A stretch of 64,000 bases of DNA from Spirochaetota bacterium (GTDB taxonomy: Bacteria; Spirochaetota; Spirochaetia; Treponematales; UBA12059), in assembly GCA_022703505.1 (NCBI GenBank), contig JAKLDN010000009.1, positions 62,001-126,000 on the forward strand. Direction: 5' to 3'. The stretch's first letter is position 1. The number at the start of each line of letters is the position of its first letter. Of this stretch, positions 2,928-24,384 are shown piece by piece. The position numbers and the translations under genes were made by a program. Below the pieces are notes generated by a model. That model was not told where the DNA came from and ran no database searches. It was given only the letters and a program-made list of their open reading frames with translations.

Positions 2928-2949
2928 GGCCCCGTCCGCCGTGGGCGGA

Positions 2950-3110
2950 CAACGTCTCCGACCCGTCTTCGCCTAACCTTCCCGTACCGGGATCCAGGGC
3001 GAGCGGGCGGTGCCGGACGGCTGGATCCGCGTTCCCGACCCGGGGCGCGCCGACCGCCCGGCCGAGGGTCCGGGGAGAAATTCCCGAGCCTCCCGTTTGG
3101 AAAGGAGAAC
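2950..3110 (+). promoter_or_regulatory. Moco-type (molybdenum/tungsten cofactor) riboswitch
   Basis: The 5' leader carries the conserved blocks I know from the Moco RNA motif upstream of E. coli moaA. CTCCGACCC lies at 2956-2964 and GAGGGT at 3064-3069. A short hairpin with a GAGAAAT loop sits at 3071-3086, then GCCTCCCG at 3088-3095 and GGAAAGG at 3099-3105. TCTCC (2955-2959) can pair with GGAGA (3104-3108) to close the aptamer. That 3' strand is also the Shine-Dalgarno sequence of the leader ORF at 3117, so ligand binding would plausibly hide it and switch the operon off. The same blocks recur at 14178-14316. Downstream tungstate uptake genes suggest tungsten cofactor as ligand, but sequence alone does not separate W from Mo. 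Confidence 0.75.
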
Positions 3111-3116
3111 TTCCCC

Positions 3117-3209
3117 ATGCTCCATCTCCTGATTCCTTACAGAAAAGCACCGGATATCCCTCTTCCGGGCCTCTCGGACAACATCGTTCTTCGAGGAGGC
3201 AACCCGTGA
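3117..3209 (+). CDS. 30-codon leader ORF coupled to tupA
   Basis: A 30-aa ORF (begins MLHLLIPY, ends RGGNP) that starts 9 nt after the AAAGGAG forming the last strand of the riboswitch. Its TGA (3207-3209) overlaps the GTG start of tupA as GTGA, so translation of the leader could be coupled to tupA. There is no signal peptide and no codon run typical of an attenuator. It is probably a regulatory leader that carries the riboswitch-controlled initiation site; a function for the peptide itself is not supported. tupA also has its own GAGGAGG at 3193-3199. Confidence 0.5.
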   Translation: MLHLLIPYRKAPDIPLPGLSDNIVLRGGNP

Positions 3210-14124: not shown

Positions 14125-14177
14125 CGCTCACTCCTTGCCCGCGGGTCCGCAGGGCCCGGGGCGGGTTTCGGCGCGTC

Positions 14178-14316
14178 GTCTCCTTTCCGATGCCGTTGCG
14201 GCGGGAGGCGCGCGGATTTCCCCGCGCACCCTCAAGGGAGCGGCGACGCCGTTCCCTAGGGACCCGGGATCCTGCGCCGCACGGAGGAGGCGTTTAGATC
14301 CCAAGGTTCGGAGGCG
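14178..14316 (-). promoter_or_regulatory. Second Moco-type riboswitch, upstream of ydhY
   Basis: On the minus strand the leader shows the same ordered blocks as at 2950-3110. CTCCGAACC is at 14305-14313 and GAGGGT at 14228-14233. A GCGCGG/CCGCGC hairpin with a GGAAAT loop spans 14210-14227. GCCTCCCG is at 14202-14209, and GGAAAGG at 14182-14188 runs into GGAGAC. CTCC (14310-14313) can pair with GGAG (14180-14183). An extra mini-hairpin (GCCG-CAA-CGGC) replaces the short TTT loop of the first copy. The ydhY ribosome binding site lies 45 nt further on, so the output mechanism differs from copy one. Conservation of the blocks supports a common ligand for uptake/synthesis genes and the enzyme operon. 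Confidence 0.75.
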
Positions 14317-14363
14317 GATGGAAAAGATCGGGGCGGGTATCTTCTGGATCCCCGCCAGGGCCA

Positions 14364-18081: not shown

Positions 18082-18110
18082 TTGACAACGAGATAGGCCC
18101 CGATTAGACT
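18082..18110 (+). promoter_or_regulatory. Promoter of the acidic-protein/MAF operon
   Basis: TTGACA (18082-18087) and TAGACT (18105-18110) are spaced by 17 nt. Transcription would begin near 18117, about 68 nt before ATG 18185, which has GGAG at 18176-18179. Confidence 0.7.
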
Positions 18111-18184: not shown

Positions 18185-20239
18185 ATGGCGACCTTTGAGC
18201 GGCACGAAGGACGGAACCTTAAGGGAATCGACCCCGACGCCAAGGATCGGGACCTCGAGCAGTACGGAATATGGGTTAAGGCGGAGCCGCAGGATGTCCT
18301 GGAAGAACCGGACATCGAGGACGCTTCCCTGCTTTCCGAGGCTCCGGAGGAGGCCGCGGTCCTGGATGAATCCTTCCTGACGGATGAGGAGGAGGTCTTC
18401 CTGGGTGCCGGCGACCGACCGGCCGGACGGCCCCGGGCGGAGGACGCGGATGTCTTCCTGTCGACCTCGGAGACTCCGTCCCTGCACGAGGAGGAGCTCT
18501 CCATCCCCTCCCTGGATGAATCGCCCGCGGAGCTCCCGGAGGATCTTCCCCGGATCCCCGATATGGCCGAATTCGAGTCCCTGGAGGATCTAGGGGTGCC
18601 GATTGAGGAGTTCACCCCCGACGAAACCCGGAAACCTTCCCCTCGGGGCCCCGAACTCGAGGAAATCCAGGATGTCTCCGATTTCGGTCTGGAAGAGGCC
18701 GAGCCCGTGCTGGAAGCGGGTACGGAAACGGATTTCGAATCCATCGATATCGACCTCAAATTCGACGACACCCTGCCGCCGAGCCCCGCCGCCCAGGGGG
18801 CCAAGATAGACCGCCCCCAGCCTTCGGGCGCCGACGGGTTCGAGACGGTCACGGATTTCGACGACTTCCTTTCCGGGTCGGATGCCGGCCCCGCGGAAAC
18901 CGCGGAACCCTTGTCGCCCCCCGCGCGTGCCTCCTTCGAACACAAGCATCCCGCGGAATCGGACGATTTCAGCCTGGAGGACATCCCGGAAATTCCGGGC
19001 GGACAGCCCGTAGACGACTTGGCGGAGCTCGAACGGGATCTCGCGACCGGCCCGGGTCGCCCGTCCGTGCGCGCGCAGGCCGCCGAAGACTCGTCCTCGG
19101 ACATTCTCCTCAAGATCGCGGGCGAACTCTCCTCGATCAAGGAAGAGCTCGTTTCCCTCAAGTCCCAAATCGCCGCCATGAAATCGGCCTCCCCGGCTCC
19201 GGCTGAGGGGATCGAGGAAGCGGCGAAAGCCGAGTCGGGCAAGGCCGGTGGATTCTTCGACGAGGAAGAGGACGAGACGATAGCCCTGACCGGGGACGAG
19301 TTGGACAATATCCTGAATACCGCCGAATTCTCCGAGGAAAGCGCGGAGCCAGCCCCTCTCCAGGAGGTTCCCGAGACGGTCGAAGCCCTGGAAGACCTGC
19401 TTCCGGAGACGGGGGACTACGCTTCCAAACCGGCCTCCGTCGACTCCGATTCTTCCGGCATCGAGGAGCTCCGCCTCTCCGACGATCTCGAGGGCGAAGA
19501 GGCCCCGATACCGGCGGACGAGGGCATATCCACGTTGGCTGAGGAGGGAGTGGCTCCCCTCACCGCTCCCCCCGAGGATACCTCCTATCTTGAGGATGCC
19601 GAGGAACTGGAGCTCGCAGGCGACGAGGATCTCCCGGAGGCCCCCCTGCTGGAGCCGTCCCCGGAAGAGCTGAACATCGACGAACTCGTGGAAGAGGGAT
19701 TCGAGGAGGCCGAGGAACTACCGTTGGCGGAATTCGAGTCCGCCGAGGGTCTGGAGGAAGCCGCGGACCTCGAAGAGGAATCGGAGGAGCTGGAGGAGCT
19801 CACCCTCGACCTGGACAGCGAACCCTCCTCCATCGTCCTGGAATCTCCGGAGAACATCGAACTGCCGATACCGGAAATCGAGGAAACGGAGCCCGGATCC
19901 ATGGAGTCCGCTCCGGAGTTCGTGGAGGAACTGGCCTCCGAGGAAGACTCCGCCGGACTCGGGGAGATCGCCCTGCACCACGAGGAATCCCCCGTGCCGG
20001 TATCCGCGGGCAGCCCCGGGATCGCGGAGCCCGAGGCCCTGCTGGTCGAGGACCTGGAGCCCGGGGATACCCCCAAGCCGGAGCAGATCCCGAATCGGAT
20101 CAAGGACGAGGTTCGCAGCGTGCTCACGTACCTGGACAAGCTTCTGGAAGCCCTCCCGGAGGAGAAGATCGAGGAGTTCGCCCAGTCCGAACACTACGAG
20201 ACGTACAAGAGGCTCTTCGAAGAGCTGGGGTTGGTGTAA
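18185..20239 (+). CDS. Large acidic low-complexity protein (spirochaete type)
   Basis: A 684-aa protein dominated by Glu, Asp, Leu, Pro and Ser, with no signal peptide or transmembrane helix. Only the ends look ordered. The N-terminus (first 35 residues, RHEGRNLKGIDPDAKDRDLE) is mixed in charge. The last 55 residues (IKDEVRSVLTYLDKLLEALPEEKIEEFAQSE and on) are predicted helical and resemble a conserved C-terminus I associate with treponemal proteins. A short coiled-coil patch (ISSIKEELVSLKSQIAAM-like) lies near residue 320. Such proteins may act as scaffolds or spacers; the function is unknown. It is first in an operon with the frameshift gene (ATG 3 nt after its stop) and two MAF-type genes. 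Confidence 0.8.
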   Translation: MATFERHEGRNLKGIDPDAKDRDLEQYGIWVKAEPQDVLEEPDIEDASLLSEAPEEAAVLDESFLTDEEEVFLGAGDRPAGRPRAEDADVFLSTSETPSLHEEELSIPSLDESPAELPEDLPRIPDMAEFESLEDLGVPIEEFTPDETRKPSPRGPELEEIQDVSDFGLEEAEPVLEAGTETDFESIDIDLKFDDTLPPSPAAQGAKIDRPQPSGADGFETVTDFDDFLSGSDAGPAETAEPLSPPARASFEHKHPAESDDFSLEDIPEIPGGQPVDDLAELERDLATGPGRPSVRAQAAEDSSSDILLKIAGELSSIKEELVSLKSQIAAMKSASPAPAEGIEEAAKAESGKAGGFFDEEEDETIALTGDELDNILNTAEFSEESAEPAPLQEVPETVEALEDLLPETGDYASKPASVDSDSSGIEELRLSDDLEGEEAPIPADEGISTLAEEGVAPLTAPPEDTSYLEDAEELELAGDEDLPEAPLLEPSPEELNIDELVEEGFEEAEELPLAEFESAEGLEEAADLEEESEELEELTLDLDSEPSSIVLESPENIELPIPEIEETEPGSMESAPEFVEELASEEDSAGLGEIALHHEESPVPVSAGSPGIAEPEALLVEDLEPGDTPKPEQIPNRIKDEVRSVLTYLDKLLEALPEEKIEEFAQSEHYETYKRLFEELGLV

Positions 20240-20242
20240 GGT

Positions 20243-21162
20243 ATGGGTCTACTGGACAAGGCATCCCGCGGGTTTTCCCGGCCCGCCCCGGCCCGCGGCG
20301 GCGGGCTTCTTGAGAGGGCATCCCGGACGCGCACCGTCCCCGGGGGAGAAAAAAAAAACTAAGCAGCCTTGATGCCGACGAGGCTCTGGGCGCCATCCTG
20401 TCGGAATGTCTCGAGGCCCCGGCGGATTACTTTCTTCCCGCCCGGATCCTCCGGATTCTCCGGGACCGCGGGGGGTTCCCCGACTTAAGGATCACCCTGG
20501 AAGAAGGCTCGGAAGCCGGTTCGAGGGTTTTCGCGTCCATCCTGGACTCCGGCGAACACTCCGCCGGCTATGACGCCGCAGGTGAGGATTCCGCCGGTTC
20601 GAGCTGTCTCCTGGGCCCTCATTACCGCCTTGAGGTACTCGGAGTCACCGGGGCGGAGCGGATGCTCTCCCTCCTGGGCGCTTCCCTGGCCGCTCCCCTG
20701 AAAGCCTCCCGACCGCCCTGTCTCCGCCACGACCTTCCGCCGGAACGACCCCCTTCGGAACTTGCCGCGGCGGCTTCCACTCGATTCGCGGATTCCCAGG
20801 CGGCGAGCGCCACCCTCTGCGTCCTGGATCCCAGGCCCTTCCTTGATTCCGCGGCGGAGTCCTTCCCCCAGCTCAATCCCGAGTGCCTCGCGGAGGATCT
20901 GGCCCGCTGCCTGGCCGCCTACTTCGAGTCGTCGGGGGGTCTGTTCCTCTGCGATTCCGGGGAACTGGCGGCTCTTTGCTGCGGATCCCGCCCCGTGGAC
21001 ACGGGATTGCTCCAGAGTCAACTGGGCAAGTATGTGCGGAAATTCATCTCTCCGGCCGTAGAGGTTCCCATACGCGTACGCAGGTCCCGGACCTTCGAAT
21101 CTCCCATGACCGGTGAAATGGAATCCTTCCTTGCCGAGTGCTCCGACGGACCCGGCGCGTGA
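20243..21162 (+). CDS. Unknown protein expressed through a -1 frameshift at A10
   Basis: ATG 20243 opens a 39-codon frame that ends in AAA AAA AAC TAA (stop 20360-20362). From 20359 the -1 frame is open for 267 codons to TGA 21160-21162, with no start codon before 20662 that would suit the family context. The junction contains A AAA AAC (20353-20359) inside a run of ten A, a canonical -1 slippery heptamer, with GGGGGAG just upstream. A -1 shift, or one extra A by polymerase slippage, yields a 306-aa protein. The combined product has no signal peptide; it has helical, Ala/Leu-rich segments and ends MTGEMESFLAECSDGPGA. The function is unknown; it sits between the acidic protein and the MAF genes. 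A missing A in the assembly is the simple alternative. Confidence 0.7.
20353..20359 (+). promoter_or_regulatory. Slippery heptamer A AAA AAC
   Basis: Within the A10 run (20349-20358) the zero-frame codons AAA-AAC can re-pair as AAA-AAA one base back, and the next zero-frame codon is TAA. A Shine-Dalgarno-like GGGGGAG (20342-20348) and a weak 5-bp stem (AGCCT at 20365-20369 with AGGCT at 20380-20384) flank it, as stimulators do in known -1 frameshift sites. Confidence 0.6.
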
Positions 21163-21184
21163 ACCCAGGCTGATCCCCGGTACG

Positions 21185-22714
21185 ATGGCCGATCCGATCG
21201 TCTCCCCGCGCCTGCATTCCCGGTTCGATCCCGCGGGGGAGGCGGCACGGTACCTCGAGGAATCCCTGGGAGGCCGCCGCCCGTCCTGCCTGCTCGTCCT
21301 GGGCGGCGGCGAGGACTGGCTCTCGGAGGCCGCCCGGGCCAGGCTGCCCGGCTCCCTGGTGATCTCGATCCAACTGGACCCCCGTTTCCGCGGCCGCGAA
21401 CGCCTGGGCGCAGACCTCCGGTGGTACCCGGACGACCCGATCGCCCTGGGCCCGTTTCTCGCCCGTTCCGTACCCGGTCGTCTGGACGGAGGCGTCGCCG
21501 TGGTTTCCTGGAAGCCCTCCGAACGAGCCTTCCCGGACGCAACCGGGACCGTGTTCCGGGAGCTCCGGCTCGCCCTGGAGGACCTCACCTCGGACGCCGC
21601 CACGGTCCGCTATTGGTCCCGGCGCTGGATGGCCAACGGCCTGCGCAATTTCCTGGCCGCCGACCGGTATTGCCGGCCCAAGCCCGGACCTTTTCCGATC
21701 GTGGTGGCCGCGGCGGGTCCGAGCCTGGAGTCGGCCCTGGATGCCCTGGAACCCCATCGAGGGCGGCTCCGCCTGTGGGCCCTGACTTCGGCCGCGGCGG
21801 CCTGCGCCCGGAGGGGCTGGACGCCGGAGCTTCAGGTGAGCACGGACCCGGGATTCTGGGCGGACCGTCATTTCGACTCGATGCTCCGAACCCGACCCTC
21901 CCGCCGGATTCCCCTGGCCGCGCACCTCACCGCCCGGATTTCGCCCGCGGCCCTCGGTCTCTGTTCCCTGGCCCTGCTTTCCCCGGCGGACGCTCCTGAA
22001 AACGACCTGTCGAGGGCCGCGGGGCTTCTCTCCGTTCCGGGTCCTTCCCGGGGAACCTCCGCGGCCGACGCCCTGGCCCTGGCCGTGTCAGTCTCCCGAG
22101 GAGCCGTCATCGCCGCGGGGCTCGACCTGGCTTCCCGAGACCTCCGGTCCCACTGCAGACCCTACGGCTTCGACAACCAAGTCCTGAGGCCGGAACGGAG
22201 GCTCCGCCCGGGCCTGACCTTGATCTGGGACCGGGAAATCCCCGCCTTCCCGGAGCGGTTGGGCATCTGGAGACGGGGGCGCGCCTTCGACCTCTACGCG
22301 GGAGGACTCTTCCCCGCCCCGGGCAAGGGAATCCTGCGCCTACTTCCGTCCCCCGTCGACGTAGCGGGGACCCTTCCCCTGGCTCCGGAGGACCTGGATT
22401 CCGTCCTCGCCGGGGATACGGTCGATCCGGACCGGCAGGTGGAGGAATACGAAGCCCCCGACCGTCCGCGCCGCACCTCCATCGCGAGGGCGGCTATGGA
22501 CGCCTGGGAAGCCGAGGCGGAGGCGGCCCTTTCCGGTCGGATCGGTCCTCCCCTGCCCGCCCGAACCCGCCGGCTCCTCTACGCCCTGGGAGGTCCCGAG
22601 GCGGCCGCCTTCCTGGCGGAGACGGCCCGGGGAATCCGTGAGGAGGCCCTCGCCCGCCGCGCGAGGACGGCCGTCGAAGGTTCCCTGGCGGGACTCCGGG
22701 AGCGTACGGCATGA
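21185..22714 (+). CDS. DUF115/MAF-type protein 1
   Basis: A 509-aa cytoplasmic protein of the 6-hydroxymethylpterin-pyrophosphokinase-like DUF115 group, which includes the motility accessory factors (MAF). Around residue 170 the core reads IVVAAAGPSLESALD, the nucleotide-binding AGPSL motif, followed by the LWALTSAAAACARRGW and VSTDPGFWADRHF segments. The DP in VSTDPGFW stands where the family usually has a D-x-Q. MAF proteins are thought to transfer nonulosonic acids to flagellins. ATG 21185 gives the usual family start; a GTG at 21113 would extend into the previous gene without a ribosome binding site. It overlaps the next gene as ATGA. Confidence 0.8.
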   Translation: MADPIVSPRLHSRFDPAGEAARYLEESLGGRRPSCLLVLGGGEDWLSEAARARLPGSLVISIQLDPRFRGRERLGADLRWYPDDPIALGPFLARSVPGRLDGGVAVVSWKPSERAFPDATGTVFRELRLALEDLTSDAATVRYWSRRWMANGLRNFLAADRYCRPKPGPFPIVVAAAGPSLESALDALEPHRGRLRLWALTSAAAACARRGWTPELQVSTDPGFWADRHFDSMLRTRPSRRIPLAAHLTARISPAALGLCSLALLSPADAPENDLSRAAGLLSVPGPSRGTSAADALALAVSVSRGAVIAAGLDLASRDLRSHCRPYGFDNQVLRPERRLRPGLTLIWDREIPAFPERLGIWRRGRAFDLYAGGLFPAPGKGILRLLPSPVDVAGTLPLAPEDLDSVLAGDTVDPDRQVEEYEAPDRPRRTSIARAAMDAWEAEAEAALSGRIGPPLPARTRRLLYALGGPEAAAFLAETARGIREEALARRARTAVEGSLAGLRERTA

Positions 22715-24384
22715 ACGGCACCCTTCAGCGCAACCTCCTGGCCATCTCCACCACGGACCCGGAACTGGCGGGCCGCATATCCAAGGCCGCCCGGGACCCG
22801 TGCGTCCACCGGGAAACCGCCCGCAGCGGCGACCCCATCCCCCTGCTACGGGGGCCCTCCGGGGACCTGGCCCTGCATTCCCGGGTGGATCCGATTCGGG
22901 AGGCGGAGCGACTGGCCGCGGCATACCCCGCCGGCGGCTTCATCGTGTTCCTGGGCCTGGGCGCGGGGTACGGGATCCGACCCTTCCTGGACCGTCCCAC
23001 CACGGGGGGAGTCCTCGTGGTCGAGTACTCCCTGGGGCTCCTGCGGGCGATCCTGGAGGAGTTCGACCTGGCCCCGGTCCTGTCGGACCGGAGGGTCCGC
23101 CTTTTGGCGGATCCGGATGAACCGACCCTGGAGCGGGCGATCTTCGAGGCCTACATACCCATCCTGACCGGAGACTTGGCGGCGGTCCCCCTTCGGGCCC
23201 GGGTGGACTCGGATCCGGGGAATTTTTCGGAAGCCGTGGACGCCGTGCGGCGGGTCATCTCCCGGGTATCTGACGACTACAGCGTCCAGGCCTTCTTCGG
23301 CCGCCGCTGGTTCTCCAACACCGTCCGCAACTTGTACGCCGCGGAGACCTCGGTACGGCCCCTGGCACCCGTGCAGGAAGCGATCGTGACCGCAGCGGGG
23401 CCGTCCCTGGACGGCCTTGCCCCGGAACTGGATAAGGCCCGGAAAGGCCGGTACCTGATCGCCACGGACACCAGCATGGGGGCCCTCCTAGCCCGGGGGA
23501 TCGTCCCGGACGCCGTGGTCTCCATAGACTGCCAGCACATTTCCTACTACCACTTCCTAAACCCCGTGCCCGATGGGGTGCCCCTGGTCCTGGACCTGGC
23601 ATCCCCTCCCTCGGTGTCCCGGCGGGCACGGCGGGTGCATTTCTTTTCCTCCGGCCACCCTTTCTGCCGCTTCGTGTCCGCCCACTTCCGGCCCTTCCCG
23701 TCCCTGGACACCTCCGGGGGGAACGTTACCCACGCGGCGGTCTCCCTGGCCGACACCCTGGGAGCGCGGAGAATTTTCCTGTACGGCGCCGATTTCTCGT
23801 ATCCCCGGGGTGCCAGCTACGCCCGGGGAACCTATATCCATCGGTATTTCCGGCTCAGGGCCGGGAGGAAGTCTCCCCAGGAGGGGCTCTTCGCGTCCTT
23901 CCTGTACCGGAATCTCCAGGTGGACCGGGAATCCGATCCGGACGGGACATTCCGGTACGTGACCAAGCCCCTCCAGGCCTACCGGCAGAGGCTGGAGGCC
24001 TTCGCGGCCACCCTCTCCGGGGAGCTGATCCCGGTCCGGGGAAGCGGGGTGGAAATCCGCGTACCCCGGATCGCCGCCGGTCCCGTCGACTCGTCCCGCA
24101 GGCTGTCGCTGTTCGCCCCGGGCCGGGCGACCTGTACGGCCCGGGAATTCCTGGAATCCTACCGGGACGGGCTCGCAAGCCTTCCGGAGTTGTCGGCTCC
24201 TTCCATTCTCAGCCTGCGGAATCTTCCGCCGGAGAAGCAGGACCTGTGGACGACCCTCCTGCCCGCGGCCGCAGCCCTGCGCAAAGGGCTGGGGGATGAG
24301 CGGATCCTTCAGCCGGAGCTCATGGAACGTACCCGAGTTTGGGCTCTGGAGATCGTCTCCGCGGAGCTGGAGGCCGGACTTTGA
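22711..24384 (+). CDS. DUF115/MAF-type protein 2
   Basis: A 557-aa paralogue-like neighbour of the previous gene. The N-terminal region (PLLRGPSGDLALHSRVDPIREAERL; FLGLGAGYGIRPFL) is the MAF N-terminal Rossmann-like part. The DUF115 core has AAGPSLDGLAPELDKA, LIATDTSMGALLARGI, VVSIDCQHISYYHF and GADFSYPRGASYARGTY. These motifs are closer to typical MAF proteins than those of protein 1, so this copy is the better candidate for an active flagellin glycosyltransferase, a role I infer from the family. It starts inside the stop codon of protein 1 (ATGA) and ends 3 bp from the convergent lipoprotein gene. Confidence 0.85.
   Translation: MNGTLQRNLLAISTTDPELAGRISKAARDPCVHRETARSGDPIPLLRGPSGDLALHSRVDPIREAERLAAAYPAGGFIVFLGLGAGYGIRPFLDRPTTGGVLVVEYSLGLLRAILEEFDLAPVLSDRRVRLLADPDEPTLERAIFEAYIPILTGDLAAVPLRARVDSDPGNFSEAVDAVRRVISRVSDDYSVQAFFGRRWFSNTVRNLYAAETSVRPLAPVQEAIVTAAGPSLDGLAPELDKARKGRYLIATDTSMGALLARGIVPDAVVSIDCQHISYYHFLNPVPDGVPLVLDLASPPSVSRRARRVHFFSSGHPFCRFVSAHFRPFPSLDTSGGNVTHAAVSLADTLGARRIFLYGADFSYPRGASYARGTYIHRYFRLRAGRKSPQEGLFASFLYRNLQVDRESDPDGTFRYVTKPLQAYRQRLEAFAATLSGELIPVRGSGVEIRVPRIAAGPVDSSRRLSLFAPGRATCTAREFLESYRDGLASLPELSAPSILSLRNLPPEKQDLWTTLLPAAAALRKGLGDERILQPELMERTRVWALEIVSAELEAGL

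Follow-up and report, generated by a model that had tools for sequence, protein, structure and literature searches.

How can a protein be made from a gene whose start codon and folded domains lie in different reading frames? This question is raised by a locus in the window (the whole stretch of DNA that was analysed, 64 kb from an uncultured spirochaete), in which a gene for a two-domain, signalling-like protein, starting with ATG at position 20243, three bases past the stop codon of a gene for an acidic 684-aa protein, is split between two frames at a run of ten adenines (A10). Programmed transcriptional slippage at this run is proposed as the best explanation and is considered likely, with slippage at the RNA level and its efficiency being inferred.

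Organization of the split gene and its neighbourhood

The features of the locus are as follows:

18082-18110, + strand: sigma-70-like promoter match before the probable operon (consensus match only; one found versus 0.5 expected)
18185-20239, + strand: gene for the acidic 684-aa protein, whose C-terminal 47 aa served as locus anchor
20243-20362, + strand: zero-frame ORF of 39 aa, with two GLL(D/E)(K/R)A motifs in the N-terminal peptide, then KKN and TAA; the motif is kept in relatives
20342-20348, + strand: GGGGGAG, Shine-Dalgarno-like by sequence, without conservation in relatives
20349-20358, + strand: A10 slippery tract, read from the sequence; A9-A12 lies at the matching place in 50 of 50 out-of-frame loci
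20353-20359, + strand: heptamer A_AAA_AAC in the zero frame, a possible ribosomal slip site by sequence
20359-21162, + strand: -1 frame ORF of 267 codons plus TGA, from CTA at 20359 to TGA at 21160-21162
about 20362-20715, + strand: GAF domain, predicted with AlphaFold2 and Foldseek/VIA
about 20725-21159, + strand: degenerate GGDEF-like domain, predicted likewise
21113-22714, + strand: gene for an MptE-like/Maf-type protein (PF01973, 38.2 bits versus a cut-off of 34.6), with a mechanical ORF start that overlaps the split gene
22711-24384, + strand: gene for a second MptE-like/Maf-type protein (PF01973, 93.1 bits; weak FlagModPseD match)

The zero frame encodes MGLLDKASRGFSRPAPARGGGLLERASRTRTVPGGEKKN (39 aa) and ends with the codons GAA AAA AAA AAC TAA, the stop being located at 20360-20362. 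The A10 tract is positioned 35 codons from the gene start, between this short peptide and the two folded domains. A first-pass annotation had described a zero frame closing with AAA AAC TAA at the tract and a -1 frame open for 267 codons that has no start codon near its beginning. All of this was confirmed; in the window's -1 frame, ATG, GTG and TTG are absent from the preceding stop up to 20 codons beyond the tract. The gene is easily overlooked in annotation, where it takes the form of a short ORF followed by a headless one.

Within the window (approx. 68% GC), the A10 tract is the sole run of at least seven adenines, and 0.0004 runs of at least ten are expected there. The entire genome of 3.66 Mb contains three A10 runs on both strands, namely those in the split gene, in dnaX and one (C11) without an evident coding frame through it.

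The adjoining genes had been regarded as MAF-type, and this assignment holds, since the two downstream neighbours match the MptE-like family PF01973 of the Maf/PseD type. The Maf_flag10 N-terminal domain PF20157 scored 15.7 bits on the Maf-type neighbours, below the cut-off of 23.5. Elsewhere in the window, matches to the molybdenum/tungsten riboswitch RF01055 were observed at 14164-14325 (- strand, 50.8 bits), preceding a minus-strand ORF for a cysteine-rich, ferredoxin-like protein, and more weakly at 2944-3123 (+ strand, 37.4 bits).

The protein encoded in the -1 frame is homologous to continuous genes of other spirochaetes (best E-value 1.5e-42). Its ORF shows dN/dS values of approx. 0.2-0.3 (0.23/1.08 and 0.25/0.91 for the window against two congeners), with purifying selection in every pair tested; selection acts on both parts of the split gene. 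The AlphaFold2 model reached a pLDDT of 91.1, and structure comparison by means of Foldseek/VIA assigned a GAF domain to residues 5-122 (VIA Z up to approx. 10 over 109 residues, rmsd 3.2) and a GGDEF-like fold to residues 126-270 (Z of approx. 9 over 132-141 residues). A similar order of helices and strands was predicted with high confidence for an in-frame relative of the same family, the N-terminus of which was of low confidence. Pfam and NCBIfam profiles, including those for GAF and GGDEF, gave no match to the window's -1 protein; in one relative, the Pfam profile GAF_2 matched with an E-value of 1.1e-4. The protein is probably not a cyclase, since the active-site signature GG(D/E)(D/E)F was found in none of the 43 aligned members. 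Based on fold and neighbourhood, it may serve the adjoining Maf-type genes as a non-catalytic regulator or scaffold of the GAF/GGDEF-like kind.

A GLLxKA-type motif, often in two copies, is common to the N-terminal peptides. No selection for an early zero-frame stop behind the tract was detected (median of 6 codons versus 7 in the unused frame, p = 0.87), and the end of the short peptide itself is therefore probably untuned.

Conservation of the tract and of the frame state in Spirochaetia

For retrieval of corresponding loci, the C-terminal 47 aa of the acidic protein (RIKDEVRSVLTYLDKLL...LGLV) were used as anchor, an HMM built from the -1 proteins served to locate the downstream domain, and the frame of this domain was then compared with that of the start codon. 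The anchor motif is strongly conserved and bears no Pfam or NCBIfam name; it was present in 352 of the 394 genomes of the order and in 180 of the 297 genomes sampled across the class. Loci of the class survey originated from the contigs, order and class sets, and the counts given refer to sampled loci, not to all spirochaetes. In several Treponema-type genomes (L078, L107, L119, L190, L192), a Maf-type-looking ORF was observed almost directly after the acidic gene, and the GAF/GGDEF-like gene was not seen.

Within the GTDB family of the window, the locus was recovered from 20 of 23 genomes (10 genera, locus GC 33-67%). The tract occupies the same spot in all of them, as A10 in 18 and as A9 in two. 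Among the A10 genomes, 17 have the downstream domain in the -1 frame and one (G008) has it in frame, and both A9 genomes need a +1 shift; the out-of-frame state applies to 19 of the 20 genomes.

Across Spirochaetia, 50 distinct loci from at least 16 families possess the downstream domain out of frame relative to the start codon, and all 50 (GC 28-69%) feature A9-A12 exactly at the junction. Not counted here were duplicates, two loci with wrong start assignments (L270, L288) and, on account of extra frame breaks, the copy of Brucepastera parasyntrophica (NZ_CP084606), which has A9 at the junction and more breaks downstream, representing either a decaying gene or errors in the complete genome. 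A -1 shift is needed in 48 loci (43 with A10, two with A9, one with A11 and two with A12) and a +1 shift in two, both of which are A9 loci from metagenome bins. Two features expected of slippage genes were found: conservation of the run among homologues (Baranov 2005), in at least 16 families and in 20 of 20 family loci, and a homopolymer of at least about nine at the frame junction, in every out-of-frame locus. In total, 50 A-runs of at least nine were counted in 13 kb of junction DNA (first 250 nt), versus one in the remaining 163 kb of these loci; long T runs were absent from the junction DNA of the 50 loci. A chance origin of the tract was ruled out by this enrichment at the junctions together with the expectation of 0.0004 runs for the 64 kb. 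Two of the bins, DYOB01000028 (titled Borreliella garinii, GC 47%) and DYPP01000002 (Treponema denticola, GC 61%), are probably mislabelled, since the GC content of the fetched stretches does not fit these species.

In a further 82 loci, the downstream domain is in frame. Seventeen of these hold A10-A13 in frame, some being closely related to out-of-frame loci, and most of the others are without a long tract, e.g., the records of Treponema putidum and Alkalispirochaeta alkalica. Mapped onto a tree of the downstream domain, the tract and the frame state need 15 changes each, versus approx. 32-33 with shuffled labels, which indicates that both are inherited over long periods, yet were switched repeatedly. 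A continuous frame without the tract in relatives, which the first-pass annotation had named as an argument against recoding, thus does occur in some of them, as an alternation between clades and not as proof of error.

The same annotation had offered four explanations without choosing among them. Programmed frameshifting is supported, the length of the A run pointing to polymerase slippage. Since at least 16 families, represented by independent assemblies, share both the tract and the out-of-frame state, an assembly error or phase variation is unlikely. Sequencing or assembly error, or a decayed pseudogene, could be suspected, as nearly all out-of-frame loci derive from metagenome-assembled genomes and the Brucepastera copy is decayed. 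However, the same tract and -1 state recur in independent assemblies of many lineages, and the downstream domain is otherwise open, shows the low dN/dS values reported above and is predicted to fold with confidence, leaving this explanation a practically negligible probability. Phase variation, in which replication slippage would alter the tract length in the DNA and toggle the gene, is suggested by the proximity of the long A run to Maf-type genes and by the in-frame run of some relatives. Between species, each represented by one genome, the tract length is nearly invariant, however, the 50 out-of-frame loci (at least 16 families, GC 28-69%) having A9-A12 throughout and A10 in 43 cases. Together with the out-of-frame state of nearly the whole family and purifying selection on the -1 ORF, this makes phase variation very improbable.

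Separate translation of the second frame, from its own start or by translational coupling, is conceivable for the 10 of 50 loci with a start codon no more than 20 codons from the tract; a Shine-Dalgarno match precedes one such start only. Since 39 loci, that of the window included, contain no ATG, GTG or TTG from the last stop to 20 codons past the tract, separate initiation is exceedingly unlikely. The run is shared at the matching site by dozens of distant spirochaete lineages, which argues for deliberate production of the whole protein; that the split gene is recoded on purpose, by polymerase or ribosome, is therefore held with high confidence.

Polymerase or ribosome at the tract

Under the proposed transcriptional slippage, RNA polymerase would stutter at the A10 tract, so that some transcripts contain A11 (or another run length congruent to 2 mod 3). 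On an A11 mRNA, ordinary translation would fuse the N-terminal peptide with its GLL motifs to the GAF/GGDEF-like domains, and the templated A10 mRNA would yield the 39-aa peptide only. Since translation would end at 39 aa on the latter and read through on slipped mRNAs, the proportion of full-length protein might be fixed by the tract, probably at a low level, within an operon comprising the acidic partner and the Maf-type genes.

The alternative mechanism, programmed -1 ribosomal frameshifting or ribosome sliding at A_AAA_AAC or A_AAA_AAG within the run, is rather unlikely but stays alive because of the strong -1 bias: exactly -1 is needed in 48 of the 50 loci, versus +1 in two, which this mechanism predicts equally well. 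A slip heptamer is also in phase in the -1 loci (A_AAA_AAC in the window; A_AAA_AAN or A_AAA_AAA in general), A_AAA_AAG or A_AAA_AAC being in phase in most loci, and the A_AAA_AAG end was found in phase 1 in 26 of the 43 A10 loci. Moreover, the -1 ribosomal frameshifting known for E. coli dnaX (PMC5009743) provides a precedent. The heptamer and the upstream GGGGGAG noted in the first-pass annotation are both present in the window; as a stimulator, the Shine-Dalgarno-like element did not stand up in the relatives, being present in 10 of 50 loci versus 8.9 (sd 2.6) expected. A downstream hairpin was likewise rejected, since single-sequence folding of the 50 loci revealed no excess of stable structure 3' of the tract (mean z -0.61 versus -0.24 in the control; 10% of loci below z -2 versus 12%; window z +0.42). 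Given this lack of enrichment for ribosomal frameshifting stimulators, transcriptional slippage from A10 to A11 appears to be the best mechanism.

Polymerase slippage is further favoured because the length of the A run is the invariant feature. The heptamer requires six adenines, yet none of the 50 out-of-frame loci has fewer than nine. If the shift were ribosomal, drift between GAA and GAG and between AAA and AAG would be expected outside the heptamer, and the genes of the window favour AAG (AAA:AAG = 19:95); the long run was kept nevertheless, which counts for the polymerase. Retention of the tract by 17 in-frame loci is counted for slippage as well, as in tssM. The occurrence of both shift directions among orthologues, given in Antonov 2013 as a criterion for transcriptional realignment (PMC3711429), may point the same way, with the reservation that one A may have been missed in both +1 loci, which are metagenome bins. 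Bacterial RNA polymerase is prone to slip on runs of nine adenines (PMC1088944), and ribosome sliding in the E. coli in vitro system needs A11 and is weak at A9 and A10 (PMC4363877), which again counts for slippage of the polymerase.

An internal comparison is provided by dnaX of the same genome (TIGR02397, 430 bits), which has its A10 run in frame at G000:C12:205587-205596, with stops one codon behind the run in one alternative frame and five in the other. A10 was found at the matching place, with close stops in both alternative frames, in eight family loci (g1, g7, g9, g3); a ninth A10 (L335) lies at another place and is not followed by close stops, and some family members have dnaX without an A run. 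It is likely that the dnaX run serves the production of gamma and tau by slippage. In some bacteria, it is the ribosome that recodes dnaX at an A run, which counts against the slippage reading. The dnaX gene is a textbook slippage gene, and the same A10 signal in a gene with known slippage in other bacteria serves as an internal control that supports slippage.

A tentative and rather doubtful extension is that spirochaete RNA polymerase responds to A10 as a slippage signal throughout the lineage, with at least two core genes making use of it, and that the tract acts as a tunable valve in the operon. If so, conditions affecting polymerase stutter would alter the ratio of free GLL-motif peptide to full regulator and hence Maf-type activity, perhaps flagellin modification.

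Comparison with known recoding systems

Few conserved cellular genes that rely on slippage are known in bacteria. The split gene spans a whole class and appears to alternate between states in which slippage makes the long form and states in which it makes the short form, so that the set of loci offers a clean natural test of what selects for slippage. The gene also suggests that stuttering of spirochaete polymerases at A10 is useful, and brings to light a link between Maf-type genes and a degenerate GAF/GGDEF protein. In the literature searched, no description of the split gene, of its class-wide conservation or of a GAF/GGDEF-like link beside Maf-type genes was found, nor a paper joining transcriptional slippage with Treponema; the main text of Antonov 2013 (PMC3711429) names no spirochaete cluster, and an unnamed one may be contained in its supplement.

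Regarding domain architecture, the protein resembles GAF-GGDEF diguanylate cyclases and degenerate GGDEF receptors in its predicted order of GAF (Z of approx. 10) and GGDEF-like (Z of approx. 9) domains, but differs from the cyclases in lacking the catalytic signature and Pfam GAF/GGDEF matches.

The type of recoding itself is already known from tssM and also from Thermus dnaX. The nearest precedent is tssM, for which slippage at A11 yields the long form in Citrobacter rodentium and an in-frame run yields the short form of tssM3 in Yersinia pseudotuberculosis (PMC4256274). In both cases, an A run interrupts the gene and both slippage states occur, but the spirochaete gene is a different one, is distributed over a class instead of two species, and is recognized from sequence, whereas RNA heterogeneity was shown for tssM. 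For dnaX, transcriptional slippage is described in Antonov 2013 at A9 in Thermus and at A10 in the split gene of Chlorobi (PMC3711429), likewise at A9/A10 runs with no need of stimulators; unlike in the spirochaete split gene, slippage there takes place inside the tau-specific part and leads to two clamp loader forms. Transcriptional realignment in IS630-type transposases, as presented in the same paper, also joins two frames by an A or T run with both shift directions among orthologues. These transposases belong to mobile elements, whereas the spirochaete gene is a chromosomal operon gene with conserved neighbours.
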